A DNA stretch of 64,000 nt from Flavobacterium keumense (GTDB taxonomy: Bacteria > Bacteroidota > Bacteroidia > Flavobacteriales > Flavobacteriaceae). The DNA lies in NCBI RefSeq assembly GCF_029866485.1, contig NZ_CP092332.1, positions 62,001 through 126,000 on the forward strand, read 5' to 3'. This document shows positions 16,445-45,832 of this stretch, in pieces. The position numbers and the translations under genes are program-made. A model generated the notes under the pieces. It worked only from the letters and a program-made list of their open reading frames with translations, was not told where the DNA came from and did not search any database. Within the stretch, counting starts at the first letter, position 1. Each line of letters opens with the position of its first letter.

Positions 16445-16543
16445 ATGAAAACGAATTCAATTCAGTTTAGTACAGCCAAACCTCTACAACAATTTAGTCA
16501 AGTAAAAAACTCTTTTCATTATACGTACATGCGTATGTGCTAG
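16445..16543 (+). CDS. 32-residue possible leader peptide
   Basis: ATG at 16445, stop TAG at 16541-16543. It follows the -7 box at 16412 with a normal leader length. The C-terminal end is Tyr-Thr-Tyr-Met-Arg-Met-Cys, which would suit sulfur-amino-acid sensing by ribosome stalling, but no attenuator hairpin is seen between it and the TonB gene. It may also be the remnant of a longer protein. The 14.6-kb duplication boundary falls inside this ORF (16532), so the second copy lacks its start. Confidence 0.45.
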   Translation: MKTNSIQFSTAKPLQQFSQVKNSFHYTYMRMC

Positions 16544-16563
16544 TTAAAAAAAATAAATTTAAA

Positions 16564-16586
16564 ACTCGACTATTTACATATAATTA
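16564..16586. promoter_or_regulatory. operator-like repeat, copy b
   Basis: ACTCGACTATTTACATAT-type 23-bp sequence, 19 of 23 identical to the site at 16385-16407, ending 13 bp before the TonB receptor ATG. A pair of sites bracketing the 32-codon ORF fits control by the neighbouring Rrf2 regulator. Confidence 0.45.
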
Positions 16587-16599
16587 AAATACAATAAAA

Positions 16600-19164
16600 A
16601 TGACTCTATTACACAAAACAATTACAAGTTTACTATTACTAATCACAACTACTTTATTTGCCCAAACAGATGTAGAAGGAGTTGTTAAGGATAAAAACAA
16701 CCAGCCTTTAGAATTAGCGAATGTACTTCTTAAAGGCACAAAATACCATGCATTAACGGATGCTAATGGAAAGTTTACAATTGATACACGAGAAAAATTA
16801 CCTTTCACATTAATTGTACAATTTGTAGGTCACCAAACAGCAGAATTACGATTTACAAGCTTGCCTACTAATCCCATTGAAATCGTTTTAAAAAGCGAAA
16901 ATCAACTGAATGATGTTGTCATCACCTCTAGACGTAGAATTGAAAAAGCACAAAATGTACCTATTCCAATCTCAGTTGTCGGAGGAAGACAAGCAGAACA
17001 AGCGGGTGCGTTTAATGTAAACCGTTTAAAAGAATTAGTACCTTCAGTACAATTGTATTCATCTAATCCAAGAAACACGACCATCAACATTAGAGGACTA
17101 GGTTCTACCTTTGGTTTGACCAATGATGGAATTGATCCTGGAGTAGGCTTTTATGTAGACGGAGTGTATTATGCGCGTCCTGCTGCAACCACTCTTGATT
17201 TTGTAGATGTGGATCAAATTGAAGTTTTACGCGGACCTCAAGGAACTCTTTTTGGCAAAAACACTACTGCAGGAGCTTTTAACGTAACGAGTAGAAAAGC
17301 TAGCTTCACATCGGGCGCTAATCTTGAATTAAGTTATGGAAATTACGGTTTCATTCAAGCAAAAGCCTCCATTACGGGAGCTTTAAGCAAAAAAATTGCA
17401 GCTAGATTATCGTTTTCTGGAACACAACGCGACGGATTAATTGAGAATATAGTTACAGGCAAAAAAGTTAACGATTTAAACAACCAAGGAGTGCGTGGAC
17501 AGTTGTTGTATACACCTACCGAAAATACGGATATTACCTTAGCAGTTGATTATTCTAAACAAAGACCTGATGGCTATGCTCAAGTTATTGCGGGTGTGGT
17601 TCAAACTAATAGAGCAGCTTACAGACAATTCAACAACATCATCAATTCATTAGGATATAGTTTGCCTAGCACTAATCCATTTGATAGAAAAATTGATCAC
17701 GATACTCCGTGGCGTTCAGGACAAGATTTAGGTGGCGCTTCATTGAACATTAATAGTAAAATTGGAAATGGAAAACTTACAGCCACCTCAGCTTGGCGTT
17801 TTTGGAATTGGGATCCATCTAATGACAGGGATTTTACTGGACTATCTGTTTTACGACTATCTCAAGCTACTTCAAAACACCAACAATGGTCACAAGAAAT
17901 TCGTTATGCTGGGACATTTTTACCAAAAGTAACAGGAGTTGTAGGGATATTTGGGATTGGACAAGATTTAAAAACCGATCCATATCATATTGAAGAGTCA
18001 GGCTCCGCACAATGGCGTTTTTCACAAGACTCAACTGATCCGCTATGGCAAACTCCCGGATTATTTGACGGCTATGGTATAAAAACTAAATCTACTTTAA
18101 ACACGTTTAGTGGAGCAGTTTTTGGACAAACCGACTGGGCAATTACCGATAAATTACACGTATTAACTGGCTTACGTTACAACTATGACAAGAAAAAAAT
18201 AGATTATAATAGAACCACTTACGGAGGTCTTCAAACAACAAATACTGCATTGTTAGCCTTAAAGAAAAAAGTATATTCTGATCAAGCCTTTAAAGTGGAT
18301 GTAGAAGACACTAACTTTTCCGGAAATGTAACTCTAGCCTATAAAGTTTCAGAAAAAATCAACACTTTTGCCACTTTTGCTAATAGTTATAAACCAGTAG
18401 GAATTAATCTTGGAGGCATTCCATCAGATGCCAATGGTCCAATTATAGCTTTGGCTAAAATTAAACCTGAAAAAGTAAATCATTATGAAATCGGTATCAA
18501 ATCAACCCCATTTAATAGTACTACAATTAATCTAACCATTTTTAATACCGATATTGATAACTACCAAACCTTAGTTCAAAGTGAAGATCCTACTTTAAAT
18601 CGTGGCTATCTTGCCAATGCTGAAAAAGTAAGAGTACGAGGTTTTGAAGCCGATTCAAGAATAACAATTAACCAATATCTATCCTTTAACGCAGCAATAA
18701 CGTATAATGAGGGTAAATACATTAGCTTTAAAAACGCTCCTCTACCATTAGAAGAGACCGGATTAAAAGTAAATGGTGTCTCTATTTATTCTAAAGATGT
18801 ATCTGGCGGAACCTTACCTGGAATTTCAAAATGGGCAGGGACTTTAGGAGGAGATCTATCTAAAGAAGGACAGTTTTTTGGTAACAAAGGAAGGTTTTTT
18901 ATTGCTATTGATTCCTATTCAAGATCAAGCTTTTCATCAAGTGCAACTCCTTCAAAATACTTAAATATCCAAGGATACAGTATTTTTAATGGACGTGTTG
19001 GATTTAGAGCTTCGGAAGGCTTATCGGTCTATCTTTGGGGACGTAACTTATTAGACAAAAATTACTTTGAGCAATTGTTACCAGCCTCTGGAAATGCAGG
19101 ACACTATGCTGGAGTTTTAGGAGATCAAAGGACCTATGGAATTACTTTGAGATACAATCTTTAA
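16600..19164 (+). CDS. TonB-dependent receptor
   Basis: 854 residues. Signal peptide (LLLLITTTLFAQ), an N-terminal CarboxypepD-regulatory-like domain (VEGVVKDKNNQPLELANVLL, residues about 25-105), a plug domain with the NPRNTTINIRGLGS and GFYVDGVYYARP segments, and a 22-strand barrel ending GITLRYNL. No SusC-type signature and no SusD neighbour, so a siderophore, metal complex or small-molecule substrate is more likely than a glycan. It follows an Rrf2 regulator and two operator-like repeats. A near-identical but frameshifted copy lies at 31231-33800. Confidence 0.93.
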   Translation: MTLLHKTITSLLLLITTTLFAQTDVEGVVKDKNNQPLELANVLLKGTKYHALTDANGKFTIDTREKLPFTLIVQFVGHQTAELRFTSLPTNPIEIVLKSENQLNDVVITSRRRIEKAQNVPIPISVVGGRQAEQAGAFNVNRLKELVPSVQLYSSNPRNTTINIRGLGSTFGLTNDGIDPGVGFYVDGVYYARPAATTLDFVDVDQIEVLRGPQGTLFGKNTTAGAFNVTSRKASFTSGANLELSYGNYGFIQAKASITGALSKKIAARLSFSGTQRDGLIENIVTGKKVNDLNNQGVRGQLLYTPTENTDITLAVDYSKQRPDGYAQVIAGVVQTNRAAYRQFNNIINSLGYSLPSTNPFDRKIDHDTPWRSGQDLGGASLNINSKIGNGKLTATSAWRFWNWDPSNDRDFTGLSVLRLSQATSKHQQWSQEIRYAGTFLPKVTGVVGIFGIGQDLKTDPYHIEESGSAQWRFSQDSTDPLWQTPGLFDGYGIKTKSTLNTFSGAVFGQTDWAITDKLHVLTGLRYNYDKKKIDYNRTTYGGLQTTNTALLALKKKVYSDQAFKVDVEDTNFSGNVTLAYKVSEKINTFATFANSYKPVGINLGGIPSDANGPIIALAKIKPEKVNHYEIGIKSTPFNSTTINLTIFNTDIDNYQTLVQSEDPTLNRGYLANAEKVRVRGFEADSRITINQYLSFNAAITYNEGKYISFKNAPLPLEETGLKVNGVSIYSKDVSGGTLPGISKWAGTLGGDLSKEGQFFGNKGRFFIAIDSYSRSSFSSSATPSKYLNIQGYSIFNGRVGFRASEGLSVYLWGRNLLDKNYFEQLLPASGNAGHYAGVLGDQRTYGITLRYNL

Positions 19165-19177
19165 TATCCTCCTATTT

Positions 19178-19220
19178 AAAAAAACACCACATCCAACTCA
19201 TTGAATGGGGTGTTTTTTTT
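19178..19220 (+). terminator. terminator after the TonB receptor
   Basis: AAAAAACACC and GGTGTTTTTT arms around a 20-nt loop, followed by T residues. Confidence 0.8.
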
Positions 19221-19265
19221 CATTATGGACTATATTTGTAAACTATCATATTCAAATTTACTGCA

Positions 19266-19790
19266 ATGAAAAAATCACCATTATTAATTTTATTACTATT
19301 TACAATACTATTTACAATACTATTTTCATTGAATGCAACAGCCCAAAATGAAAAAGAAACTTTTCCTAAAATTACGGGGTTTATTGCTATTCTTCACCCT
19401 TTGGTGACTTTTTCAGCTAACGAAACAACCACAAATTTTAACGATTATTATGCTGTTGGAATGCCAATAGGTTTAAATCTTTGGAAAAATGAAAAAATAG
19501 GCTTCTCATTTGAAATTGTACCTACAATAAAAAGTGATAACCAAATAAGTAAAGTTAGTAACATTCTAATCCATCCAGGTTTATTAGTTCGATTGAAAAA
19601 AGGATATACTTTTGCTGGTAGATTGGCTTTTGAAACATCAGGACGCTATGGGTTTACTCCCGTAATAGCTAAAGTAATAAAAAAACATACCGACCACAAT
19701 TATTATGTTTCCATGCCTTTTCCTGTTCGATTTGGCAACAATCATGATGCCTCTATTAGTGTTGGAATACAATTTGGAATTGCATTTTAA
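19266..19790 (+). CDS. small outer-membrane beta-barrel-like protein
   Basis: 174 residues. Signal peptide with a duplicated FTILFTILF segment ending NATAQ; then short amphipathic strands (GLNLWKNEKIGFSFEIVP, LLVRLKKGYTFAGRLAFE) and a final IQFGIAF with terminal Phe, as in outer-membrane proteins. It stands between the TonB receptor terminator and the der terminator, so it is transcribed alone. No named family recognised. Confidence 0.75.
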   Translation: MKKSPLLILLLFTILFTILFSLNATAQNEKETFPKITGFIAILHPLVTFSANETTTNFNDYYAVGMPIGLNLWKNEKIGFSFEIVPTIKSDNQISKVSNILIHPGLLVRLKKGYTFAGRLAFETSGRYGFTPVIAKVIKKHTDHNYYVSMPFPVRFGNNHDASISVGIQFGIAF

Positions 19791-19845
19791 AATTTCCAAA
19801 AACTTTACTATTTTGATTTAAAATACTAACTCCATTACAACAACA

Positions 19846-19873
19846 AAAAGTCCCGATTTCTCGGGACTTTTTT
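19846..19873. terminator. strong bidirectional terminator
   Basis: AAAAAGTCCCGA/TCGGGACTTTTT, 12-bp perfect stem with a 4-nt loop, between the convergent outer-membrane gene and der. Confidence 0.92.
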
Positions 19874-19874
19874 A

Positions 19875-21185
19875 TTATTTCTCTCTAATATAAATATCGA
19901 TTGGCACTCCAGAGAAGTCCCATTTTTCTCTTATTTTGTTTTCCAAATACCTTTTATAAGGTTCTTTTACATATTGCGGCAAGTTAGCAAAGAATACAAA
20001 CTGTGGCGTTTGTGTTGGCAATTGCATACAATATTTAATTTTTACATACTTCCCTTTAGTAGCTGGTGGCGGATACGCTTCAATTACTTTCAACATGAAT
20101 TCATTGAATTTAGATGTTGGAATACGTTGTTGTCTATTATCAAACACTCTAACCGTTGCTTCCAATGCCTTCAATAATCGCTGTTTAGTTAAAGCCGATA
20201 CAAATAAAATTGGCACATCCGTAAATGGCATTAACTCTTTTTTAATTTTTTCTTCGTAATCGCGGGTGGACATGGTATCTTTTTCGACCAAATCCCATTT
20301 GTTTACCAAAATCACCAGTCCTTTACGGTTTTTCTCAGCCAACCAAAAAATACTTTGGTCTTGCCCTTCAAATCCACGGGTAGCATCAATAACTAATATA
20401 CAAACATCGGCATGTTCAATCGCTCGTACAGAACGCATTACCGAATAAAATTCTAAATCTTCTTTTACTTTTGCTTTACGACGAATCCCTGCTGTATCTA
20501 CCAAGTTGAATTCAAAACCAAAACGGTCAAATTTAGTATCAATCGCATCTCGTGTAGTTCCAGCAATATCAGTCACCATGAAGCGATCTTGCCCAATTAG
20601 AGCATTAATAAAACTCGATTTACCTGCATTGGGTCTTCCTACCACAGCAAAACGAGGCAATTCTTTATCTTCTTCTTTTGGTTCTGGTTTTTCAGGAAAA
20701 GCATCAATTAAAGCATCTAACAAATCTCCCGTTCCACTTCCTGAAATACTCGCAAAAGTGAAATAATCGCCTAAACCAAGATTATAAAACTCTACTGCAT
20801 CCTTCTCACGCATGGCATTGTCCACCTTATTTACAGCTAACAAAACCGGTTTAGTAACTTTGCGTAATAACTTGGCTACCGTTTCGTCCATAGGCGTAAT
20901 CCCTTCTTCCACATCAACCACAAAGATGATTACATCAGCCTCATCGATTGCTAATTCTACTTGTTTACGAATCTCACCCTCGAATACATCATCCGATCCA
21001 CGCACATATCCTCCTGTATCGATAACAGAAAACTCTTTTCCGTTCCACTCACTTTTTCCGTAGTTTCTATCTCGGGTTACCCCTGAAACTGAATCTACAA
21101 TAGCTTCTCTTCGTTGAATTAAACGATTAAAAAGAGTTGATTTTCCTACATTAGGTCTTCCTACTATGGCTACTATGTTGTTCAT
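19875..21185 (-). CDS. der: ribosome-assembly GTPase Der
   Basis: 436 residues with two tandem G domains: GRPNVGKST near residue 8 and GRPNAGKSS near residue 182, each with its DTAG/DTGG and NKxD motifs, and a C-terminal KH-like domain. Der (EngA) acts in 50S subunit maturation and is essential. A TACCTTTG -7 box lies at 21207-21214. This copy has the full-length C-terminus; the second copy at 34471-35820 is frameshifted in its last codons. Confidence 0.97.
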
Positions 21186-21206
21186 AATCTAATTTGAAAT
21201 ATTTTG

Positions 21207-21214
21207 CAAAGGTA
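21207..21214 (-). promoter_or_regulatory. der -7 box
   Basis: On the minus strand TACCTTTG matches TAnnTTTG, 22 bp upstream of the der ATG. Confidence 0.55.
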
Positions 21215-21236
21215 CACTATTATTTTTAAGCTACTC

Positions 21237-21342
21237 GCGTGTGCGTGAAGGATAGTAGTAGAAATCCTTTTTAAGTTGCCTTCGAGAACCTCAGTCAACT
21301 TAAAAAGATTGAAACGGATAGCCTGACCCTTGTGGTCACGCC
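21237..21342. repeat. structured intergenic repeat-like element between era and der
   Basis: Two nested helices: outer GCGTGA (21243-21248) with TCACGC (21336-21341), inner CCTTTTTAAGTTG (21266-21278) with CAACTTAAAAAG (21296-21307). The bases around them (GAAGGATAG, GAAACGGATAGCCTGACCC) recall a family of structured intergenic repeats that I remember from Flavobacterium genomes. Second copy at 35872-35977 because of the large duplication. Function unknown; it may be a mobile repeat or an RNA. Confidence 0.6.
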
Positions 21343-21349
21343 AAGAAAA

Positions 21350-22231
21350 TTATTGATTGTACCCAAAACGTTTTAACATATTGGCATTGCTTCGCCAATT
21401 TTTATTGACTTTTACGTACAATTCAATATGAATTTGTTTGCCAAAAAACTGCTCTAAATCGGCGCGAGAATCCATTCCTACTTTTTTCAAAGCAGCACCT
21501 TTGTGACCAATGATAATTCCTTTTTGCGTATCGCGTTCCACCATAATCAATGAACGAATACGGATGATATTGTCGTCTTCTAGAAATTCTTCGGTAATGA
21601 CTTCTACTGCATACGGAATTTCTTTGCTGTAATTCAACAAGATTTTTTCGCGAATGGTTTCGTTCACAAAAAAACGTTCTGGTTTATCCGTCAATTGGTC
21701 TTTTGGGTAATAGGCTGGCGATTCTGGAAGCAATTCGATGATGCGTCCAAAAACTTCAGGCACATTAAAATTTTGCAATGCTGAGATTGGGAAAATTTCT
21801 GCATTAGGTACTTTAGCTGTCCAGAAAGCCACTTGTTCTTCCAATTGTTCTTGATTCGAATTATCGATTTTGTTCAACAATAACAAGACCGGAATTTTGG
21901 CGTGGATGATTTTATTAAAAAAGGCATCGTCTTTTAACTCTTGTTCACCTATTTCGACCATATAAATCAAAACATCAGCGTCTTCGAAGGCTGACTTCAC
22001 AAAGTTCATCATCGATTCCTGCATTTCATATGCGGGTTTGATGATTCCAGGTGTGTCTGACAAAACCAATTGAAAATCTTCTCCGTTTACAATACCCAAA
22101 ATTCTATGACGCGTGGTTTGCGCTTTAGACGTAATGATAGACAACCTTTCGCCAACGAAAGCATTCATTAAAGTTGATTTTCCTACGTTTGGATTTCCAA
22201 TGATGTTTACAAAACCTGCTTTGTGTGCCAT
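21350..22231 (-). CDS. era: GTPase Era
   Basis: 293 residues. G domain with GNPNVGKST near residue 12, DTPG at about 59, and NKID; C-terminal KH domain with GIIIGHKGAALKKVG that binds the 3' end of 16S rRNA. Era is needed for 30S maturation. A TACCTTTG -7 box lies at 22253-22260 on the minus strand. It is upstream of der on the same strand, with the structured repeat in between. Confidence 0.97.
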   Translation of the reverse strand: MAHKAGFVNIIGNPNVGKSTLMNAFVGERLSIITSKAQTTRHRILGIVNGEDFQLVLSDTPGIIKPAYEMQESMMNFVKSAFEDADVLIYMVEIGEQELKDDAFFNKIIHAKIPVLLLLNKIDNSNQEQLEEQVAFWTAKVPNAEIFPISALQNFNVPEVFGRIIELLPESPAYYPKDQLTDKPERFFVNETIREKILLNYSKEIPYAVEVITEEFLEDDNIIRIRSLIMVERDTQKGIIIGHKGAALKKVGMDSRADLEQFFGKQIHIELYVKVNKNWRSNANMLKRFGYNQ

Positions 22232-22252
22232 TTACTGCGTTTTAATTTTTGG

Positions 22253-22260
22253 CAAAGGTA
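22253..22260 (-). promoter_or_regulatory. era -7 box
   Basis: TACCTTTG on the minus strand, 22 bp upstream of the era ATG, the same layout as for der. Confidence 0.55.
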
Positions 22261-22307
22261 GTTATATCAAGCCAATAGAAGAAATAAAAGATTTTTTAAT
22301 TTTTTTG

Positions 22308-22337
22308 TTGCAATAGTCGAATTTCGTTGTATATTTG
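22308..22337 (+). promoter_or_regulatory. promoter of the initiator tRNA gene
   Basis: TTG at 22308-22310, 19-bp spacer, TATATTTG at 22330-22337: an exact match to the Bacteroidota consensus, 12 bp before the tRNA. Confidence 0.85.
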
Positions 22338-22349
22338 CACCCGAAACAT

Positions 22350-22423
22350 CGCGGGATAGAGCAGTAGGCAGCTCGTCGGGCTCATAACCCGAAGGTCACA
22401 GGTTCGAGTCCTGTTCCCGCTAC
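22350..22423 (+). tRNA. tRNA-fMet (initiator, anticodon CAT)
   Basis: Cloverleaf is complete: acceptor CGCGGGA with TCCCGCT leaving an unpaired first base pair, D arm GAGC/GCTC, anticodon stem with three G-C pairs (GGGCTCATAACCC) and T arm CAGGTTCGAGTCCTG. The unpaired 1-72 position and the GGG/CCC anticodon stem are initiator hallmarks. CCA is not encoded. A large serine recombinase gene lies directly downstream on the other strand. Confidence 0.95.
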
Positions 22424-22431
22424 TAAACAGG

Positions 22432-22460
22432 AACCATCTTCATTTTGAGGATGGTTTTTT
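22432..22460 (+). terminator. terminator after the initiator tRNA
   Basis: AACCATC/GATGGTT stem followed by eight T residues. It overlaps the last codons of the serine recombinase on the opposite strand. The T run is eight here and seven in the second copy, which changes the recombinase reading frame there. Confidence 0.7.
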
Positions 22461-24020
22461 TTCTTTTTTACCTCCGTATGTGCTTGAAAAACTGGCAGTT
22501 AACTCGAATAATTTACTTGTTTTTGAGGTTCGATAATTTCGATTTTTGATTGAATAAAGTAAACCTGTTGGAAACAGTAAAGATTGGAACCTTCTTTTTT
22601 TATTGTAATCTAAAGAAGTATAGAATTTACTGGGGTTCTCAGCGATTTTCAAAAAATATTTCATCCCTTTTTCAAGGTTCGATTTTTTTGAAGGCATAAA
22701 TTCTAAATCTTTTACTTTTTGGTCTATCTCTTCTTTTAGTTTTTTGCCTTGTCTATCAAAAATATCTTTTGAGATTTCATTCATAGCATAACGAAATTCC
22801 ATTTTATCATACGCTTCTTTCAAGTCATTTATATCTCTTGACAATACTCTTTTTCGCTCCGAAAGATTCGCCATATCATCTTCCATTATTTTCTTCAATT
22901 GGACAGAGAACAAATCGTGTAATTCTTTTGAAAAGGCCAACTGATTTAAAACATCATAAAACTGTTCATGCACCCCTTTGTTCAAAGAGCGATTAGATGT
23001 TTCAGCATTTAAAGTCTTATTGCAACAATTGCACTTATAATAATAAATTTGTTTTGACTTATTTAGGTACGATGTCATTGTATTATCGCAATCTGCACAC
23101 AATAGAAATTTAGGTGCTAATGGAGTAGCTTCCTTTCCTGAGAGTTTAGCAACACCTAATTGTTTTGACTGAGTTAAGAGTCGTTGCAATTGATTAAATT
23201 CTCTTAAAGTTATCAAAGGTTCCCAATTACCTTTTACTAATTTTCCTTCCAATAGCGAATTGGATATTCTTCCAGTATAAAATTGGTTTCTCCACATTTC
23301 AGAAATTCGTTGCTTTGAAATTTTTACTCCTTTAGAGTCCAACCATTTTATAATTTCCGAGTCAGGATAACCTTCATAAATTTTCTTCTTAAAGGCTTCC
23401 TTTAAATATCTCCCTTCTTCATTAATCTTTATTTCTTGAAAGGCCTGTACTTTGGTTGGATCAGTTACCCTAGGCCCGAAATGGTCATAACCTCTTGGAG
23501 TTCTCCCATATACTTTTCCATTCTCTAAAGCATTAATCAATCCAGGAATAATAGTATCTTGTCTGCTAAAGTTTTCTTTCTGTGCATATAACAATTGGGT
23601 AGAAAACTCATTCTCTGCCCTCTCATTAAATGTATGGTTATTTGTACTTACAGAATACAGATATACGTTGTAATCTTTTCTTAAACTTACAAATAATTGT
23701 ATATGTTCTGCCCCTGCCCTACCAAACCGACTGGGAGACCAAATTAAAATAATCTTAGGTCTTTTTGAGGCTGGAGTCTTTTTAATTTTCTCCATCAACT
23801 CACGGAGTGTACTCTGAGTATTGATCCGTTTTGAACTTTCATATTCAGCATCAAACTCTTCAGTAATAATCAGGTTATTCTCTTTAGCAAAAGATTTAAT
23901 TTTATTTACTTGAGTTTCTATACTTCCATTATTAACAAACTGGTCTTTTGTAGATACTCTAGTGTAAGACCAAACTATAGCGTTGTTAAAATCACTAAGT
24001 ATTAAATTCTTCTTTTTCAT
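22440..24020 (-). CDS. large serine recombinase
   Basis: 526 residues. Resolvase catalytic domain with the nucleophile S23 in YTRVSTKDQ and the WSPSRFGR arginine segment; recombinase domain (GLINALENGKVYGRTPRGYDHFG); zinc ribbon with two cysteine pairs (CADC and CNCC) near residues 310-335; then a coiled coil. This is the large serine integrase architecture used by phages and integrative elements. It starts 26 bp inside the small 63-codon gene, so the two are co-translated. It abuts the initiator tRNA, but I found no repeat of the tRNA end elsewhere in the window, so no att pair is proposed. Confidence 0.93.
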   Translation of the reverse strand: MKKKNLILSDFNNAIVWSYTRVSTKDQFVNNGSIETQVNKIKSFAKENNLIITEEFDAEYESSKRINTQSTLRELMEKIKKTPASKRPKIILIWSPSRFGRAGAEHIQLFVSLRKDYNVYLYSVSTNNHTFNERAENEFSTQLLYAQKENFSRQDTIIPGLINALENGKVYGRTPRGYDHFGPRVTDPTKVQAFQEIKINEEGRYLKEAFKKKIYEGYPDSEIIKWLDSKGVKISKQRISEMWRNQFYTGRISNSLLEGKLVKGNWEPLITLREFNQLQRLLTQSKQLGVAKLSGKEATPLAPKFLLCADCDNTMTSYLNKSKQIYYYKCNCCNKTLNAETSNRSLNKGVHEQFYDVLNQLAFSKELHDLFSVQLKKIMEDDMANLSERKRVLSRDINDLKEAYDKMEFRYAMNEISKDIFDRQGKKLKEEIDQKVKDLEFMPSKKSNLEKGMKYFLKIAENPSKFYTSLDYNKKRRFQSLLFPTGLLYSIKNRNYRTSKTSKLFELTASFSSTYGGKKEKKPSSK

Positions 24021-24186
24021 CTTTGTATTTTTCGTAAACTAATTTTGTCAATTGATATAACTGCTTTGAAAACTCAAAAGCAGTTTCTTTTGAAAGCACT
24101 GTTTGTAAATTTGGTGCGATTGCAATAATCGCGTCATAATCCAATAGAAACTCTAATTCACTAGATTGGAAATTTTGTTGGTCCAT
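23995..24186 (-). CDS. 63-residue protein co-transcribed with the serine recombinase
   Basis: Acidic helical protein starting MDQQNFQSSELEFLLDYD and ending KYKDEKEEFNT. It overlaps the recombinase start by 26 bp, so it may be a recombination directionality factor or a regulatory partner, but no helix-turn-helix is obvious. The start codon sits in a compact three-helix structure (24180-24225). Not recognised as a named family. Confidence 0.65.
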   Translation of the reverse strand: MDQQNFQSSELEFLLDYDAIIAIAPNLQTVLSKETAFEFSKQLYQLTKLVYEKYKDEKEEFNT

Positions 24187-24225
24187 ACCGTGTCGAGATA
24201 AACACGGGCTGAATTCTCAGGGACC
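24180..24225 (-). promoter_or_regulatory. compact three-helix structure enclosing the start of the 63-codon gene
   Basis: On the minus strand GGTCC (24225-24221) pairs with GGACC (24184-24180), enclosing a small CTGA/TCAG hairpin and a CCGTGT/ACACGG hairpin (24207-24202 with 24193-24188). The closing helix contains the G of the ATG. This could hide the start codon in RNA, or as DNA be a recombinase or regulator site. Confidence 0.5.
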
Positions 24226-24250
24226 GATTGAGTGCTACAATATACATATT

Positions 24251-25105
24251 CTATGCTTTAATAGTTACTTTAAAATTACCTTGAGCTCTAGTCTCAATTA
24301 AAATTTTGGCCCCTAAAGGCAATTTATTATTCAAGAAGAATTTAGCAAGCTCTTCCGCTTTTTTATGCTGTTCGGTTATCGTAAATACTTTAACATCTCC
24401 TTCTTTTTCTAACTCTATCTCTAGTAATTTAGGACGGTCGAAAAACAAAACCCTTCTTAATTGATTTTCTAATGATGATAAATAATCTAAATCAGCTTCT
24501 CTTTTCTGAATTTGAAATCCAACAATTTTTTCTAAAAGTGGAACCAAAGGGATTGAAATCAGCGTTTTTCTAAAACACAAATTATTCAAATCCGATGTAA
24601 GACTAACTGAATTTAGATTAAAAAAATGCTCTCCTGTTCTAGGGCAATAAATCAAAGAAATAATATTGCTTTTTTCAAAAAGACAAGTTTTAATTGCATT
24701 AGTAAAGGGGTTGATTTCTTTTCTAAAGACAGTATCCATAATAGGTTCAAATCCCAAGAAGTGTTTTATCCAATTCTTATCTAATTCGTGTAATTGTTTA
24801 TTATTATCTAATTCTCTTTTAAGCACCTTATCTGCATACTTTTCTTCCATTGGTTTTTTCCAAATATCAGATGCAAGTGTCGCTATACGTTTTGTATCTA
24901 AACCTATTTCCGCTAATTCATTTACAATTAATATCCATAATGCTTCTGGAATATTCAAGAATCCCTTTTGGTCTTTTTCTAAAAAAGGAATAATTTGCTT
25001 TGACTTCCAAAAACTGACCTGTTTTGAGGTCAATCCGATATTAGGAGCAAGAATGAATTTGTCACTCAAAATTTCTCCTAATCGAATATAATCGTTTCTT
25101 TTCAT
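24251..25105 (-). CDS. MerR-like helix-turn-helix protein
   Basis: 284 residues. Residues about 20-45 (LAPNIGLTSKQVSFWKSKQ) look like a MerR-type helix-turn-helix, followed by LNIPEALWILIVNELAEIGLDTKRI which fits the second helix and wing. The long C-terminal part has no recognised domain. It lies upstream of the 63-codon gene and the recombinase on the same strand, and may control them. AT content and a lone lineage suggest a mobile-element gene. Confidence 0.65.
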   Translation of the reverse strand: MKRNDYIRLGEILSDKFILAPNIGLTSKQVSFWKSKQIIPFLEKDQKGFLNIPEALWILIVNELAEIGLDTKRIATLASDIWKKPMEEKYADKVLKRELDNNKQLHELDKNWIKHFLGFEPIMDTVFRKEINPFTNAIKTCLFEKSNIISLIYCPRTGEHFFNLNSVSLTSDLNNLCFRKTLISIPLVPLLEKIVGFQIQKREADLDYLSSLENQLRRVLFFDRPKLLEIELEKEGDVKVFTITEQHKKAEELAKFFLNNKLPLGAKILIETRAQGNFKVTIKA

Positions 25106-25212
25106 ACTTTTAAAAATTTTTGTTAAAAAAAAATTTTTTGTTCCAACAAGTGCGAAGTTAGAAATAAATTTTAACTTTGCAATTAAATTTTAAAAATAAA
25201 ATTAAGATATCA

Positions 25213-25296
25213 ATGGAGGGCAATACAATGAAATCAGAAAACCTAAATCATTTAATCGGTAATTCAAAAATATACGAAGAACAAAATTCAACCTAA
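25213..25296 (+). CDS. 27-codon ORF of doubtful status
   Basis: ATG at 25213 (or 25228), stop TAA at 25294. It has no recognisable domain and lies in the divergent region before the ribbon-helix-helix gene. The AATGGAGGGCAATACAATG context is the only hint of translation. Confidence 0.2.
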   Translation: MEGNTMKSENLNHLIGNSKIYEEQNST

Positions 25297-25365
25297 AAAT
25301 AGGTTCAAAATTCATGCAGATTATAAGCAGAAGAGAGGTAAACATTAAATCTACCTGACGTAAAC

Positions 25366-25398: not shown

Positions 25399-25437
25399 CT
25401 CAAAATAAATTAATACTACTAATAAAAAAAGAAAAAA

Positions 25438-35841: not shown

Positions 35842-35849
35842 CAAAGGTA
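35842..35849 (-). promoter_or_regulatory. der -7 box, second copy
   Basis: Same TACCTTTG as at 21207-21214. Confidence 0.5.
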
Positions 35850-35871
35850 CACTATTATTTTTAAGCTACTC

Positions 35872-35977: not shown

Positions 35978-35984
35978 AAGAAAA

Positions 35985-36866: not shown

Positions 36867-36942
36867 TTACTGCGTTTTAATTTTTGGCAAAGGTAGTTAT
36901 ATCAAGCCAATAGAAGAAATAAAAGATTTTTTAATTTTTTTG

Positions 36943-36972
36943 TTGCAATAGTCGAATTTCGTTGTATATTTG
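36943..36972 (+). promoter_or_regulatory. initiator tRNA promoter, second copy
   Basis: Same TTG-N19-TATATTTG as at 22308-22337. Confidence 0.8.
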
Positions 36973-36984
36973 CACCCGAAACAT

Positions 36985-37058
36985 CGCGGGATAGAGCAGT
37001 AGGCAGCTCGTCGGGCTCATAACCCGAAGGTCACAGGTTCGAGTCCTGTTCCCGCTAC
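36985..37058 (+). tRNA. tRNA-fMet, second copy
   Basis: Identical to 22350-22423. Confidence 0.93.
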
Positions 37059-37066
37059 TAAACAGG

Positions 37067-37094
37067 AACCATCTTCATTTTGAGGATGGTTTTT
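37067..37094 (+). terminator. terminator after the initiator tRNA, second copy
   Basis: Same stem as 22432-22460 but with seven T residues instead of eight. Confidence 0.65.
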
Positions 37095-38654
37095 TTCTTT
37101 TTTACCTCCGTATGTGCTTGAAAAACTGGCAGTTAACTCGAATAATTTACTTGTTTTTGAGGTTCGATAATTTCGATTTTTGATTGAATAAAGTAAACCT
37201 GTTGGAAACAGTAAAGATTGGAACCTTCTTTTTTTATTGTAATCTAAAGAAGTATAGAATTTACTGGGGTTCTCAGCGATTTTCAAAAAATATTTCATCC
37301 CTTTTTCAAGGTTCGATTTTTTTGAAGGCATAAATTCTAAATCTTTTACTTTTTGGTCTATCTCTTCTTTTAGTTTTTTGCCTTGTCTATCAAAAATATC
37401 TTTTGAGATTTCATTCATAGCATAACGAAATTCCATTTTATCATACGCTTCTTTCAAGTCATTTATATCTCTTGACAATACTCTTTTTCGCTCCGAAAGA
37501 TTCGCCATATCATCTTCCATTATTTTCTTCAATTGGACAGAGAACAAATCGTGTAATTCTTTTGAAAAGGCCAACTGATTTAAAACATCATAAAACTGTT
37601 CATGCACCCCTTTGTTCAAAGAGCGATTAGATGTTTCAGCATTTAAAGTCTTATTGCAACAATTGCACTTATAATAATAAATTTGTTTTGACTTATTTAG
37701 GTACGATGTCATTGTATTATCGCAATCTGCACACAATAGAAATTTAGGTGCTAATGGAGTAGCTTCCTTTCCTGAGAGTTTAGCAACACCTAATTGTTTT
37801 GACTGAGTTAAGAGTCGTTGCAATTGATTAAATTCTCTTAAAGTTATCAAAGGTTCCCAATTACCTTTTACTAATTTTCCTTCCAATAGCGAATTGGATA
37901 TTCTTCCAGTATAAAATTGGTTTCTCCACATTTCAGAAATTCGTTGCTTTGAAATTTTTACTCCTTTAGAGTCCAACCATTTTATAATTTCCGAGTCAGG
38001 ATAACCTTCATAAATTTTCTTCTTAAAGGCTTCCTTTAAATATCTCCCTTCTTCATTAATCTTTATTTCTTGAAAGGCCTGTACTTTGGTTGGATCAGTT
38101 ACCCTAGGCCCGAAATGGTCATAACCTCTTGGAGTTCTCCCATATACTTTTCCATTCTCTAAAGCATTAATCAATCCAGGAATAATAGTATCTTGTCTGC
38201 TAAAGTTTTCTTTCTGTGCATATAACAATTGGGTAGAAAACTCATTCTCTGCCCTCTCATTAAATGTATGGTTATTTGTACTTACAGAATACAGATATAC
38301 GTTGTAATCTTTTCTTAAACTTACAAATAATTGTATATGTTCTGCCCCTGCCCTACCAAACCGACTGGGAGACCAAATTAAAATAATCTTAGGTCTTTTT
38401 GAGGCTGGAGTCTTTTTAATTTTCTCCATCAACTCACGGAGTGTACTCTGAGTATTGATCCGTTTTGAACTTTCATATTCAGCATCAAACTCTTCAGTAA
38501 TAATCAGGTTATTCTCTTTAGCAAAAGATTTAATTTTATTTACTTGAGTTTCTATACTTCCATTATTAACAAACTGGTCTTTTGTAGATACTCTAGTGTA
38601 AGACCAAACTATAGCGTTGTTAAAATCACTAAGTATTAAATTCTTCTTTTTCAT
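37075..38654 (-). CDS. large serine recombinase, second copy
   Basis: Same as 22440-24020 up to the last codons. The poly-T tract at about 37090 is one base shorter, so the frame misses the normal stop and reads on to 37017, through the complement of the initiator tRNA, giving a 545-residue form ending GTGLEPVTFGL. That tail is the familiar artefact of translating tRNA-antisense sequence. I mark only the part that matches the normal 526-residue protein; the true end depends on the poly-T length. Confidence 0.85.
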
Positions 38655-38820
38655 CTTTGTATTTTTCGTAAACTAATTTTGTCAATTGATATAACTGCTT
38701 TGAAAACTCAAAAGCAGTTTCTTTTGAAAGCACTGTTTGTAAATTTGGTGCGATTGCAATAATCGCGTCATAATCCAATAGAAACTCTAATTCACTAGAT
38801 TGGAAATTTTGTTGGTCCAT
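38629..38820 (-). CDS. 63-residue protein, second copy
   Basis: Identical to 23995-24186, overlapping the recombinase start by 26 bp. Confidence 0.65.
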   Translation of the reverse strand: MDQQNFQSSELEFLLDYDAIIAIAPNLQTVLSKETAFEFSKQLYQLTKLVYEKYKDEKEEFNT

Positions 38821-38859
38821 ACCGTGTCGAGATAAACACGGGCTGAATTCTCAGGGACC
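38814..38859 (-). promoter_or_regulatory. three-helix structure, second copy
   Basis: Identical to 24180-24225. Confidence 0.5.
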
Positions 38860-38884
38860 GATTGAGTGCTACAATATACATATT

Positions 38885-39739
38885 CTATGCTTTAATAGTT
38901 ACTTTAAAATTACCTTGAGCTCTAGTCTCAATTAAAATTTTGGCCCCTAAAGGCAATTTATTATTCAAGAAGAATTTAGCAAGCTCTTCCGCTTTTTTAT
39001 GCTGTTCGGTTATCGTAAATACTTTAACATCTCCTTCTTTTTCTAACTCTATCTCTAGTAATTTAGGACGGTCGAAAAACAAAACCCTTCTTAATTGATT
39101 TTCTAATGATGATAAATAATCTAAATCAGCTTCTCTTTTCTGAATTTGAAATCCAACAATTTTTTCTAAAAGTGGAACCAAAGGGATTGAAATCAGCGTT
39201 TTTCTAAAACACAAATTATTCAAATCCGATGTAAGACTAACTGAATTTAGATTAAAAAAATGCTCTCCTGTTCTAGGGCAATAAATCAAAGAAATAATAT
39301 TGCTTTTTTCAAAAAGACAAGTTTTAATTGCATTAGTAAAGGGGTTGATTTCTTTTCTAAAGACAGTATCCATAATAGGTTCAAATCCCAAGAAGTGTTT
39401 TATCCAATTCTTATCTAATTCGTGTAATTGTTTATTATTATCTAATTCTCTTTTAAGCACCTTATCTGCATACTTTTCTTCCATTGGTTTTTTCCAAATA
39501 TCAGATGCAAGTGTCGCTATACGTTTTGTATCTAAACCTATTTCCGCTAATTCATTTACAATTAATATCCATAATGCTTCTGGAATATTCAAGAATCCCT
39601 TTTGGTCTTTTTCTAAAAAAGGAATAATTTGCTTTGACTTCCAAAAACTGACCTGTTTTGAGGTCAATCCGATATTAGGAGCAAGAATGAATTTGTCACT
39701 CAAAATTTCTCCTAATCGAATATAATCGTTTCTTTTCAT
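38885..39739 (-). CDS. MerR-like helix-turn-helix protein, second copy
   Basis: 284 residues identical to 24251-25105. Confidence 0.65.
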   Translation of the reverse strand: MKRNDYIRLGEILSDKFILAPNIGLTSKQVSFWKSKQIIPFLEKDQKGFLNIPEALWILIVNELAEIGLDTKRIATLASDIWKKPMEEKYADKVLKRELDNNKQLHELDKNWIKHFLGFEPIMDTVFRKEINPFTNAIKTCLFEKSNIISLIYCPRTGEHFFNLNSVSLTSDLNNLCFRKTLISIPLVPLLEKIVGFQIQKREADLDYLSSLENQLRRVLFFDRPKLLEIELEKEGDVKVFTITEQHKKAEELAKFFLNNKLPLGAKILIETRAQGNFKVTIKA

Positions 39740-39999
39740 ACTTTTAAAAATTTTTGTTAAAAAAAAATTTTTTGTTCCAACAAGTGCGAAGTTAGAAATA
39801 AATTTTAACTTTGCAATTAAATTTTAAAAATAAAATTAAGATATCAATGGAGGGCAATACAATGAAATCAGAAAACCTAAATCATTTAATCGGTAATTCA
39901 AAAATATACGAAGAACAAAATTCAACCTAAAAATAGGTTCAAAATTCATGCAGATTATAAGCAGAAGAGAGGTAAACATTAAATCTACCTGACGTAAAC

Positions 40000-40032
40000 C
40001 TTAAGTATACCTTAGGTATTTCTTAGGTATAC
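40000..40032. promoter_or_regulatory. three 11-bp tandem repeats, second copy
   Basis: Identical to 25366-25398. Confidence 0.6.
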
Positions 40033-40071
40033 CTCAAAATAAATTAATACTACTAATAAAAAAAGAAAAAA

Positions 40072-40572
40072 ATGGAAAATTCAAATAACAGAAATATTAC
40101 TTTAAGTACTAAAGTAACAGCAGAGCAAAAAGCAGAATTTACTAAAATTGCAGCAAAACATAATATCTCCTTATCAGAGTGGAGCGCTAGTCTATTAGAA
40201 ATACACAAGGATTCATATGACAAAATTGGAGACCCAACCTTGAGAGAAATAAAACTTGAAGATGAACTGCAAAAAAAAGAACGCGAAATTAAACGACTAA
40301 CTGCTAATTTAGAAAGTGCAGACTATAAAGCACAAGTTGAAATGAAAAGAGCTGACAATGCTATTAGAAGGAGAGACGTTGAAATATTAAAACATAAAGA
40401 AACAAAACTAGAAAAAGAAAAAATAGAGAATGAGATTGAAAAAATGAACTTACTCCTTGCTCAAGTAAATACAACTAATTTAAAAGATTCTAGTTCCAAT
40501 AAAATTCAATCCGCTCTACTTCCATTATCACTAGCAACAATAATAGGAGGAATATTTCTAGCAAAAAGATAA
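40072..40572 (+). CDS. ribbon-helix-helix, coiled-coil, membrane-anchored protein, second copy
   Basis: 166 residues identical to 25438-25938. Confidence 0.75.
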   Translation: MENSNNRNITLSTKVTAEQKAEFTKIAAKHNISLSEWSASLLEIHKDSYDKIGDPTLREIKLEDELQKKEREIKRLTANLESADYKAQVEMKRADNAIRRRDVEILKHKETKLEKEKIENEIEKMNLLLAQVNTTNLKDSSSNKIQSALLPLSLATIIGGIFLAKR

Positions 40573-40819
40573 TGTATATTTAACAAACTCTAAATTAAAT
40601 GAATTCTTCCCAATATTGCTAAAATAAAATAACTGATTTTGTGAATGTTATAATTTCGATATAAAACAAAAGAAGGCTGTTTTTAGTAACTAATTAGAGA
40701 AATTTAAAATTATTTTTCATGATTATTCAAACTTTATTAGACTTCTTAGGTCTAAAAAAAAGACATCAGTTACAAAAAAGTATAATTAAAAACAATCTTA
40801 AATCTTAAATTTTAAAAAC

Positions 40820-42028
40820 ATGAAAAATCAACAAAAATCAATTTTAGCTTTTGCATTATCTGTAATGCTTTTTAGTTGTTCTAATGATGAGCCTATTGGA
40901 ACTGGGACTCAAGTAAGTGCTACGAACTCAACTTATGAAGTAGTGGCAGCGGCAGCACTACCAACAGCAGCCTCAGCTTATATTTCTTCTAATTATGCTG
41001 GCGCCACTACTACCGAAGTAAATTTGAATTCGAACGGGACTTATGCTGTATATATTACAAATACCTCTGGCACAACTGCAAAATCAACCGTTGCAACAGC
41101 AAATACGAAAAGTTTAATTCAACTAAATTTTACAGTTAAAGGAGCGTTTGTATCTGCTAAAACACAGACTTTAGTAGCTATTGTAGACTTATTACCTGCT
41201 ATAACTACTTATATTTCTACGAATTATGCAGGAGCAGTGATTAATGCCGCACATGTTGAATCTGATGGAAGCTTTGATGTATTATTGACTGCTGCAGATG
41301 GGAGTAAGGTAAAATTAAATTTTAAATCAGACGGGGCTTTTGTATCGGCAAAAGCTTTAAAAGCCAACGGAAACCATAAACACAACCATAGTAATGGGCA
41401 TACTCCTATAGCTATAGCAGATTTGGCTGATGCTATTAAAACCTATATTACTACTAATTATAGTGGGGCTACAATAACATCTGCCCATAAAGAGTCGGAT
41501 GGTACTTTTGATGTATTTATTACAACCGCTTCTGGAGCTAAATTAAATATTAATTTCTCTGCTTCAGGAGATTTTGTTTCAGTAAGTTCGGACGATATTC
41601 ATCATTCAGATAATGGGACTGTAATTGCAATCAGTACTTTGTCCTCTGCAATTACTGCTTATATTAACACAAATTATGCAGGAGCTACTATTGTAAATGC
41701 AAAACAAGAAACAGATGGAAATGTTGAAGTTTATATCTTGACTGCAACAGGAATTAAATTAGAATTAAAATTTGATGCTTCGGGCAATTTTGTTTCTTTA
41801 AGTTCTAATAGTAATAATCATTTCCCATCAAATGAGGCACCAGTAGCTTTGGCTAATTTATTAGCAACTATTAAAACTTATATTACAACAAATTATATCG
41901 GCGCAACAATTAAAGAGGCCCATATAGAATCCGATGGAACGTTTGATGTGGTTATTGTTACCTCTTCAGGAGTTCAAATCAAGTTAAAATTTAGTGCTAC
42001 AGGAGCGTTCTTGAGAATCAAAAATTAA
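40820..42028 (+). CDS. PepSY-like repeat lipoprotein, second copy
   Basis: 402 residues identical to 26186-27394, with the lipid cysteine, five repeats and His-rich linkers. Confidence 0.85.
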   Translation: MKNQQKSILAFALSVMLFSCSNDEPIGTGTQVSATNSTYEVVAAAALPTAASAYISSNYAGATTTEVNLNSNGTYAVYITNTSGTTAKSTVATANTKSLIQLNFTVKGAFVSAKTQTLVAIVDLLPAITTYISTNYAGAVINAAHVESDGSFDVLLTAADGSKVKLNFKSDGAFVSAKALKANGNHKHNHSNGHTPIAIADLADAIKTYITTNYSGATITSAHKESDGTFDVFITTASGAKLNINFSASGDFVSVSSDDIHHSDNGTVIAISTLSSAITAYINTNYAGATIVNAKQETDGNVEVYILTATGIKLELKFDASGNFVSLSSNSNNHFPSNEAPVALANLLATIKTYITTNYIGATIKEAHIESDGTFDVVIVTSSGVQIKLKFSATGAFLRIKN

Positions 42029-42054
42029 TAAAGAAAGTATCCCTTTTCAAAATG

Positions 42055-42088
42055 CAAAAAGGTTGCCTCCAATTGGGTAACCTTTTTG
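42055..42088 (+). terminator. terminator after the PepSY-like gene, second copy
   Basis: Identical to 27421-27454. Confidence 0.85.
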
Positions 42089-42236
42089 TTTATAAATAAC
42101 GATTATGTCATTATTTGTAGTTTGATAATATAAAGCATATTTTTATAATCATAAAAAAATATGTTAAACTAAATTGCATATAGAAGGTCTAATAGTTAAA
42201 TGAAATTATTTTTTTAGTATTTTAAAACGGCTAAAA

Positions 42237-42806
42237 TTGAATAGCGAAGAAGATTTTATCAAAAAGCTGATTAGTAATAGTCAGAAAGATGCTGCTTTCA
42301 AGAAGTTACTGGACATGTATCAGGTTAAGTTGTATTGGCTAATTCGAAAATTGGTAATTACGCATGATGACGCAAATGATGTTTTGCAAAACACATTTAT
42401 AAGAGTGTATAAAGGGTTGCCTAAGTTCACACAGAATAGTTCTCTGTACACATGGATGCATAGAATAGCCTATAATGAAGCACTTCGGTTTATAGAACAA
42501 AATAAAAAAAAGCACCATGTTTCGATAGATGATGTAAATAGTAGTTATTTAGACACCTTAATGGAGGATTCTTTTTTTGAGGGTAATGAAATTCAGACAA
42601 AACTACAACGAATATTGGCAGGCTTGTCAAACAAACAAAGAGAAATATTCAATATGAAGTATTATGATGATATGAAATTTAGAGAGATTGCAGCCCTTAC
42701 AGGAATTAAGGAAGGAACACTCAAAACGTCCTATTATAATACAGTAAGTTTGATTCAAAGTACAATTCAAAATATAGAAACAACACCTTTACAAAAGGCA
42801 GATTAA
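42237..42806 (+). CDS. ECF sigma factor, second copy
   Basis: 189 residues identical to 27603-28172, TTG start. Confidence 0.9.
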   Translation: MNSEEDFIKKLISNSQKDAAFKKLLDMYQVKLYWLIRKLVITHDDANDVLQNTFIRVYKGLPKFTQNSSLYTWMHRIAYNEALRFIEQNKKKHHVSIDDVNSSYLDTLMEDSFFEGNEIQTKLQRILAGLSNKQREIFNMKYYDDMKFREIAALTGIKEGTLKTSYYNTVSLIQSTIQNIETTPLQKAD

Positions 42807-42842
42807 AGATATTTATTAGTAAAATTTTAAATTACACTTGAA

Positions 42843-43349
42843 ATGGAATTAGATAGAAAAGTTAAACGTCAATTAACTGATGAACAAATGAATAAGATTC
42901 ATTTGGAAGATTTGGGATTTGATATACCAAAAAATTATTTCGAGTTATCTAAAAATGAAATTTTAGAAATTACTATTAAGAGAGAAAAAGGAATTTTCAG
43001 ATTGTTTTCTGAAAATAATCCGTTTTTAAAAATTGCAGCAAGTGTAGTCTTGCTCTTAGGGGCATTTATTTATATACAATTCGTTAAACCGCAAGTAATA
43101 ACTAAAGAGAATGCGGTAGCGCAATTATATAAGGTAGATAAAACAACATCTTTAGGCGCCTTAGATTCAAATCAAACAAATGTTGTTAGGGCAGTAGAAA
43201 TATCAAATAAAAACAAGTCAATTAAAAAGAAAAAAAAGAATGAAGAAGATGTAGTTCAAAATGAAAATGATATCTTAGTGAAATCATTATTTGTTGAAGA
43301 ATCAGAAGTAAATCAATACATTGAAAATTCTATATTAGAAGATATATAA
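42843..43349 (+). CDS. anti-sigma-like membrane protein, second copy
   Basis: 168 residues identical to 28209-28715. Confidence 0.75.
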   Translation: MELDRKVKRQLTDEQMNKIHLEDLGFDIPKNYFELSKNEILEITIKREKGIFRLFSENNPFLKIAASVVLLLGAFIYIQFVKPQVITKENAVAQLYKVDKTTSLGALDSNQTNVVRAVEISNKNKSIKKKKKNEEDVVQNENDILVKSLFVEESEVNQYIENSILEDI

Positions 43350-43374
43350 AAGATAGGCATTAAAAGAAAATCAG

Positions 43375-43800
43375 ATGAAACCAACAACTACAAAGATACT
43401 ACTTGTTTTCACCTTTTTCATTGGAGTATCAACTGTCCAGGCGCAAGAAAAAGATCGTGCTACAACACTCACTATTGAACAGCAAAGACTATTACAAGAG
43501 CAACGAGATGTGGTAAAAGCCAATAGAGAAGCGTTTAAGGCATCCCTCACAGCGGAACAATTAGCAATACTGAAAGATAAATCATTGAATAAAGAGCAAC
43601 AACAAGCTGCTCTTATAGCTACTTTAACTGAAACGCAAAGAACTTTGTTAAATGAGAACAGAGAAAAAGCCAAAGTATTCAGAGAAGAGTTCAAAACCTC
43701 GCTTACTAAAGAACAACGGCAACAGTTACATTCTCAGAATGAAGGAAAAATTAGAGAGAAAGTAAATGAGATAAAAGAGAGAAGAATAAGAAGGAATTAA
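43375..43800 (+). CDS. Spy-like periplasmic protein, second copy
   Basis: 141 residues identical to 28741-29166. Confidence 0.8.
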   Translation: MKPTTTKILLVFTFFIGVSTVQAQEKDRATTLTIEQQRLLQEQRDVVKANREAFKASLTAEQLAILKDKSLNKEQQQAALIATLTETQRTLLNENREKAKVFREEFKTSLTKEQRQQLHSQNEGKIREKVNEIKERRIRRN

Positions 43801-43872
43801 TTTTTTTTACTACCTTGTGCCTAAGTAAGTAGTTGATATTTCAATTGCTTACTTTTTTAATTTAATGAATAC

Positions 43873-44742
43873 GTGGAAAAATTTCTGACCCTAATTTTTT
43901 GTTTATCAGTAGTTTTTATAGCTTCCTCTCAAGAATTATCCGATAAAGAAACAGATGATGTTATTGATGGTTTATTTGAGAATAGTAAAACCTTGGATGA
44001 GGTTTTAGCGTCTTTTACAAAGTATCAGTTTTTGTATCTTTCTATAAATTATAACGATAAAACCTTCTTTTCAGGAAGAGATATAGGAGTGAGTCAATTT
44101 AGTCTTACGCCAAAAATAAGTTACTTACATTATTCGGGTTTTTCTGCCACTGTATCTGGAGCGTATTATAATAAATTTGATCCAAAATGGGACTTAACCA
44201 TTGTAAATATTGGTTATGGAAAGAGTTTAGGGAAAAATAGTAACCTTAAATATTATACTTCATACATGAGGTATTTTTATAACAATGGTCTTTCTAATTC
44301 ATTTGAAAACGATATTACGGCTGGATTTGGGGTTAAAAACAAGAAAAAAACGTTAGGAACGCTACTATCAGGGTCTTATTTGTTCGGTAAAGACCATGCC
44401 TTACAGCTTGCTTCAACCACCTATGTATTATTTAAATTAGTCAAAACCCCACAATACAGATTGGATTTTAGACCACAATTTAGTCTTATTGCAGGAGACC
44501 TAACGGTAGAGTTGTCACGAACGTATTTTCAGAATGGTCGTATAGTAACAGATTATACCACAAATAAACAATTCTATTTGATTAATAAACAACTTAATTT
44601 GCCAATTCAATTTAGTACAAATTCTTTTGATTTTGAGTTGGGTTACAACATCAATTTCCCTTCTGCCATTGGTAGTGAGACCAATTTAAAAAACACGTGT
44701 TATTTTAATTTTTCGGCTGCTTATTTGTTTGATTTGAAATAA
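43873..44742 (+). CDS. outer-membrane beta-barrel protein (intact copy)
   Basis: 289 residues from a GTG start; the ATG 7 bp upstream is out of frame. Signal peptide ending ASSQ, then about ten short amphipathic strands and a final AAYLFDLK. The broken form at 29239-30107 lacks one base. It is the last gene after ECF sigma, anti-sigma-like and Spy-like genes, with a 72-bp gap that carries a weak AAGTAAG/CTTACTT hairpin. Possibly an outer-membrane target or output of that sigma system; no named family. Confidence 0.8.
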   Translation: MEKFLTLIFCLSVVFIASSQELSDKETDDVIDGLFENSKTLDEVLASFTKYQFLYLSINYNDKTFFSGRDIGVSQFSLTPKISYLHYSGFSATVSGAYYNKFDPKWDLTIVNIGYGKSLGKNSNLKYYTSYMRYFYNNGLSNSFENDITAGFGVKNKKKTLGTLLSGSYLFGKDHALQLASTTYVLFKLVKTPQYRLDFRPQFSLIAGDLTVELSRTYFQNGRIVTDYTTNKQFYLINKQLNLPIQFSTNSFDFELGYNINFPSAIGSETNLKNTCYFNFSAAYLFDLK

Positions 44743-45021
44743 AAAACCATAACTATCTAGATTAAAAGAAAATTGTGGTTTCAATAGTGAGTAATATTGA
44801 TTAAACGGGTATAAATAATTGTTTTTCTAAAGGACATCAAGTGGATAAAAATAAAAAATTAAGTTCATTGGTAAAAAAATAAGTACAAACCAAACAGTTG
44901 TTTTTTCCAATCCGACAATTTAGCCAAATGGTTTTTAATCTTAATTTTATTGACTTTGCAAAAAGAAAAACAACTAAAACAAAAGTTGCTTAGATATCAA
45001 TAAAATATAATTACAATATTT

Positions 45022-45474
45022 ATGGGTTATTCACCAATGACAATAGCGAACTACTTCATACAAGAAAAAGCCAAATTTGGCAAATTGACTTCAATGAAGT
45101 TAATCAAACTGGTTTATATTTCTCACGCTTGGTGTATTACATTAAAAGTGAAAGAAAATCCATTAAAAACTTAAATACCAAGCTTGAATATGAACCAATT
45201 TTTCCTTCATTAGATAAAGTAATAAAGAGTGAAAGGACAATCGAAGTTGAAAAACCTTTACCAACCGACAAAGAAGATATTATCTCGAGTGATAATGCTG
45301 AATTTTTAGACAAGATTTGAAACTTATACGGAAAATATAATGGTGTAGAGTGAGTGCATGACACATGCATAAAATACACCTTGGAGACAAGTTTATTGCA
45401 GAGATTGTAATTCAGAAATTCCAGATGATTTAATAATTAATCACTATATCTCAAAACTAAAATCTTATTCATAA
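45022..45474 (+). pseudogene. decayed Panacea (DUF4065) antitoxin gene, better copy
   Basis: The N-terminal 50 codons (ANYFIQEKAKFGKLTSMK, LVYISHAW) end at TAA; the frame shifts to a Lys/Glu-rich middle (45129-45320, ending FLDKI), and the C-terminal piece EIPDDLIINHYISKLK ends at TAA 45472-45474. Panacea proteins are hypervariable-partner antitoxins. Both copies of the repeat show the same breaks, so the gene is truly dead or a rare sequence-wide error. The next fragment may be its partner. Confidence 0.7.
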
Positions 45475-45477
45475 GTG

Positions 45478-45832
45478 ATTGATTTAAATAAATTACCAAA
45501 TACCATTCCTGACAATTTCAAAGATGCAGATATTGATAGAGCTATTTCCGATGTGAAAACGTAGAATAAAAATATTTCACCCGAAGAAGAGAGGTATCGT
45601 GGAAATACAATCCTGAGAGATAATTTAGCAAAGTTTTTTACTATTGTGATATTTTTGGTTAGTATTAGTTATTCTAATACTAGTCGGTAATAATTGTAAC
45701 ATTAATAATTTAAGTGACACGGTGTCAATAACTCTAATAACTACCACAAAAATACAAGTTTTAGGTTTGGTATATATCCTACTTAAAGACTTATTTCCAG
45801 GTAAAAAAAGAATAAATTTCGAAAACAAATAA
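45478..45832 (+). pseudogene. decayed small membrane protein next to the Panacea gene
   Basis: LPNTIPDNFKDADIDRAISD, in-frame TAG, then PEEERYRGNTILRDNLAKFF and a hydrophobic helix; after a frameshift the same helix continues as LVLVILILVGNN, then a second membrane segment (TKIQVLGLVYILLKDLF) to the stop at 45830-45832. Two membrane segments beside a Panacea antitoxin fit a membrane-acting toxin or an accessory protein, but that is inference. It crosses the right end of the duplication and stays coherent, which shows that the right boundary of copy 2 is native. Confidence 0.6.

Follow-up and report, generated by a model that had tools for sequence, protein, structure and literature searches.

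The window analysed here, 64,000 nucleotides from Flavobacterium keumense (positions 62001–126000 of a single-contig genome of 2,538,339 bp), contains a 14.6 kb tandem repeat that is very probably an assembly artefact, produced when contig ends that shared 14.6 kb were joined with the overlap left in. A self-BLAST of the window aligns 31162–45797 with 16532–31162 at 99.87% identity over 14,641 columns, and the two copies stand head to tail on the forward strand. Copy 1 of the 14.63 kb unit occupies 16532–31161 and copy 2 occupies 31162–45797, and together they lie at genome positions 78.5–107.8 kb. The only novel joint, at 31161/31162, interrupts an open frame that runs on through 45797 in copy 2. 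One C is common to the unit start (31162) and the unit end (45797) and the position of the unit edge is therefore ambiguous by 1 bp. An earlier note on this DNA had described 16532–31161 and 31162–45796 as the same sequence, which is borne out here except that the true end lies one base further on, at 45797. Two near-identical copies of such length, kilobases each, arranged head to tail, are what overlapping contig ends are expected to leave behind.

The unit contains genes for a TonB-dependent receptor, Der, an era-like GTPase, tRNA-Met, a serine recombinase, a PepSY-like protein and a sigma factor, together with several unnamed genes. In the left part of the unit it is copy 1 that agrees with relatives. 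Its TonB-dependent receptor gene (16600–19164, + strand) is intact and encodes 854 residues; the counterpart in copy 2 (31231–33800, + strand) is split into three frames of 495, 96 and 237 residues. Among the best 80 of 435 loci, the closest to this receptor are Flavobacterium or Flavobacteria records, with 93–95% protein identity in Ww15 (L003), F. ammonificans GENT11 (L004) and GWA2_35_26 (L005). The gene der, which encodes the EngA GTPase, has 436 codons in copy 1 (19875–21185, − strand) and 449 in copy 2 (34471–35820, − strand), where the frame of the 3′ end is changed. The era-like GTPase gene with a KH domain (21350–22231 and 35985–36866, − strand) does not differ between the copies, and the tRNA-Met(CAT) gene lies at 22350–22423 and 36985–37058 (+ strand). 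In the right part of the unit the situation is reversed: a gene is intact in copy 2 (43873–44742, + strand, 289 residues) and reduced to a frame of 209 residues in copy 1 (29239–29868, + strand). The earlier observation that the left-hand genes are intact in copy 1 and broken in copy 2, with the reverse on the right, thus holds for the TonB receptor, der and the right-hand gene. The serine recombinase gene, which was absent from that list, is a fourth affected gene; it encodes 526 residues in copy 1 (22440–24020, − strand), with an exceptional T-run difference at 22455, and 545 residues in copy 2 (37017–38654, − strand).

In copy 2 the end of the recombinase gene extends 42 nt into the antisense strand of the tRNA-Met gene, and in copy 1 the T-run difference brings the stop before the tRNA. 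In all eight related loci (L105–L112, the recombinase matches among 12 loci fetched) the gene ends 42–50 nt inside a tRNA, which is tRNA-Met in two and tRNA-Leu(CAA) in six, and the tail of the recombinase looks as if it were written in the tRNA target of the enzyme. A search of the window for the 25-nt 3′ end of the tRNA, allowing up to three mismatches, gave the two tRNA copies and nothing else. A recombinase acting beside tRNA-Met was considered as the cause of the repeat and rejected, as it sits ∼5.9–7.5 kb inside the unit, away from the edges. At the right end of the unit, decayed reading frames cover 45022–45832 (+ strand), and the frame that is open where copy 2 ends runs across the boundary. 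The adjoining stretch (45800–47066) is likewise decayed and holds no reading frame of at least 90 residues; its translations resemble a broken transposase, and 46032–46787 matches the genome G107 at 84–88%. Further to the right, 58592–60131 is a tandem array of 8.4 copies of a 183 bp unit (99% matches) inside a reading frame of 1215 residues with a DUF5907 match, and weaker relatives of this unit are present nearby and elsewhere in the F. keumense genome.

Alignment of the two copies reveals 16 difference events: ten one-base indels, one indel each of 3 and 2 bp, and four substitutions, all of which are transversions by inspection of the copy alignment. Indels therefore make up the majority (12 of 16). 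The events fall into two groups, at unit positions 21, 119, 129, 138, 1524, 1596, 1807, 3388 and 5924 on the left and at 13122, 13307, 13910, 14146, 14287, 14313 and 14370 on the right. No difference lies between 5924 and 13122, and a gap as large as this 7.2 kb middle arises in ∼0.04% of simulations with 16 uniformly placed points. The earlier description of unevenly spread differences, mostly one-base indels, around an identical middle of about 7 kb is therefore accurate. Beside the joint, copy 2 has seven extra bases over 124 bp (31183–31306), and the final 260 bp of copy 1, adjoining the joint, contain none.

Relatives were used as judges of which copy had changed, and they decided the direction for 15 of the 16 events. 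For the events at 119, 129 and 138, the extra bases of copy 2 are absent from all four aligned relatives (L003–L006). For those at 1524, 1596, 1807 and 3388, the length is that of copy 1 in seven, nine, eight and nine relatives, respectively, of 12 tried for each, the remainder giving no match. At unit position 21, the one event outside this count, the relatives match copy 2 in length and differ from it in the base. The T-run event at 5924 (window position 22455) was assigned to copy 1, since in L105 and L106, relatives of the recombinase, the reading frame is that of copy 2. In the right part, copy 2 is supported at 13122 and 13307 by a protein of G017 with 62% identity, the former being a weak call that depends on a single codon in a single relative, the first base of that codon being compatible with copy 2; at the remaining five events (13910, 14146, 14287, 14313 and 14370) copy 2 agrees in every case with an 83% identical stretch of G167.

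The outcome is strongly asymmetric. Copy 2 carries seven changes; no decided event in the initial 3.4 kb of the unit belongs to copy 1, and these seven sit at most 3.4 kb to the right of the joint. Of the eight changes in copy 1, seven fall at most ∼1.5 kb to the left of the joint and make up every change in the last 1.5 kb of the unit; the eighth is 8.7 kb distant. The changes thus gather where copy 1 ends and copy 2 begins, the pattern expected of an overlap, with 22455 as the exception: in 14 of the 15 decided cases the change is on the joint-facing side, and none of these 14 is more than 3.4 kb from the joint. Treating events as independent, the probability that at least 14 of 15 changes would point towards the joint is ∼0.0005 by copy alone and 0.002 if the events at 119–138 are counted once; that of at least 14 of 15 falling within 3.4 kb of the joint is ∼1.6 × 10⁻⁸, for a limit that was set after seeing the data. 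In a biological duplication the differences would be expected to be independent of the distance to the joint, which is not what is observed. The proposal in the earlier note that errors cluster on both sides of the joint consequently stands for these 14 events and is weaker than stated in two details, which also count against an artefact: the T-run change in copy 1, so far from the joint, and the error-free last 260 bp of copy 1, which simple tapering of a contig end would not predict. The T-run is a homopolymer of seven to eight bases and in this respect is like the A-run of the single background candidate described below.

The outer edges of the repeat appear to be ancestral and the joint between the copies appears to be new. 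Five relatives (L003–L006 and L008) align across the left edge of copy 1 in one piece, and their match to copy 2 begins at its first bases (31163–31169); the 80 bases immediately to the left of the edge are poorly conserved. Gene order to the left of the unit, which the earlier note had proposed to compare with related genomes, agrees with them. On the right, G167 matches copy 2 across the edge into the flank, and copy 1 loses that frame at the joint. This right-edge evidence is short, because G167 is the sole relative found among 299 genomes of the genus and its match fades beyond about five bases. No second copy of 16300–22430, which includes the left 5.9 kb of the unit, was listed in the genomes of the same five relatives, with 40 candidates scored per genome, and the left 5.9 kb is single-copy in the genomes of the three closest (L003, L004 and L005, among the best 80 of 435). 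No repeat was found at 16532, 31161 or 45797 beyond the copies themselves by self-BLAST (word size 20, E 1e-5), which, together with the absence from the window of any further match to the tRNA 3′ end, speaks against a duplication driven by a mobile element. The earlier statement that the junction has no inverted repeats or target duplications and at most one shared base is in keeping with this search and with the 1 bp that is shared. Real duplications may likewise share very few bases at the joint, and the missing homology is therefore not decisive by itself.

The genome record is a single contig whose first base is the first base of the ATG of dnaA (the gene name coming from a reading of the protein). 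A contig that begins at dnaA points to a record that was closed and then rotated, and the scar of closure would therefore sit inside the record. Accordingly, as expected of a rotated record, comparison of its first and last 20 kb revealed no overlap, and an end-to-end overlap of the present record was rejected. For the background frequency of frame changes, 94 reading frames from the first 120 kb of GENT11 were compared with 166 kb of the F. keumense genome; 62 frames with matches of at least 60% identity were retained and weaker ones were dropped. Outside the repeat this control gave one frameshift candidate in 64,719 bp matched to conserved coding sequence. The candidate, an A-run near genome position 2070 (L083) in a gene whose frame is uninterrupted in GENT11, is either one more error at the base level or a genuine pseudogene. 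In copy 1 the automatic control found no frameshift candidate in 4,755 bp, and in copy 2 it covered 4,718 bp with two internal-stop matches in the TonB receptor gene. The automatic rule left these stops unflagged and missed the change near the end of der, so the breaks in both genes of copy 2 rest on the copy alignment, the frames and the relatives, and the control count may be low.

We propose that a circular Flavobacterium chromosome was assembled, probably from long reads, as one linear contig, both ends of which would have covered the same 14.63 kb. The ends would then have been joined with the overlap left in, a trimming step presumably being missed, and the closed sequence rotated to dnaA, which would have moved the scar to its present place. 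Copy 1 would be the 3′ end of the unrotated contig and copy 2 the 5′ end. The consensus would have been poor where each end tapered out, and thin read support at both ends would therefore have placed errors on both sides of the joint. The untrimmed contig-end overlap suggested earlier is thus well supported by the 14 joint-facing changes, the ancestral edges, the single-copy state of the left 5.9 kb in relatives and the start at dnaA. Near-identical overlaps at contig ends and the resetting of contigs to dnaA are described in the Circlator paper (PMC4699355), and an assembler benchmark (PMC6966772) reports overlap that runs to thousands of bases with some assemblers and correlates with read N50. 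The F. keumense repeat resembles the overlaps in these accounts in its length and near identity, in its changes near both inferred contig ends and in the dnaA start. It differs from them in that the overlap is inside the record, where a comparison of the first and last 20 kb finds nothing.

Bacterial chromosomal tandem duplications also consist of head-to-tail copies with one novel joint; in the present case, however, the differences are uneven, and which copy is changed depends on the distance to the joint. A real duplication of any form, whether fixed or carried by part of the cells, is unlikely. Transient tandem duplications are well known in bacteria, which counts in favour of a 14.6 kb duplication of the der–era–tRNA-Met and recombinase region present in part of the cells and joined without homology; an under-covered joint with a poor consensus would also place errors around the joint. 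We nevertheless regard this as very unlikely, as the assembler would have had to pick the minor form and no edge repeat was seen that might drive the duplication. Still harder to defend is a recent tandem duplication by illegitimate joining that became fixed in the strain, with the differences representing later decay of spare copies. The single novel joint is that of a simple tandem duplication, its 1 bp is compatible with end joining and all four affected genes retain one longer version, but mutation has no reason to fall mainly in copy 2 in the left part and exclusively in copy 1 in the right part, to leave the 7.2 kb middle untouched or to face the joint in all but one decided case, and the density of extra bases at the start of copy 2 resembles that of read errors. 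A mis-join of two separate contigs sharing 14.6 kb, instead of the closure of one circle, would give rise to the same pattern of errors and is scarcely credible, given that a single contig starting at dnaA fits closure better and that gene order to the left of the unit agrees with relatives.

If the repeat is indeed an untrimmed closure overlap, its signature, in which relatives identify the altered copy and the side of the joint on which the alteration lies, offers a search for closure scars that does not need reads and that suits rotated public genomes, in which the two ends of a record show nothing when compared. For F. keumense the result is a correction. The finished chromosome would be ∼14.6 kb too long, and the duplicated der, era, tRNA-Met, TonB receptor, recombinase and sigma-factor genes, together with the broken copies, would not be biology. 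Because the error pattern almost certainly points to an untrimmed overlap, no credence should be given to the additional gene copies.
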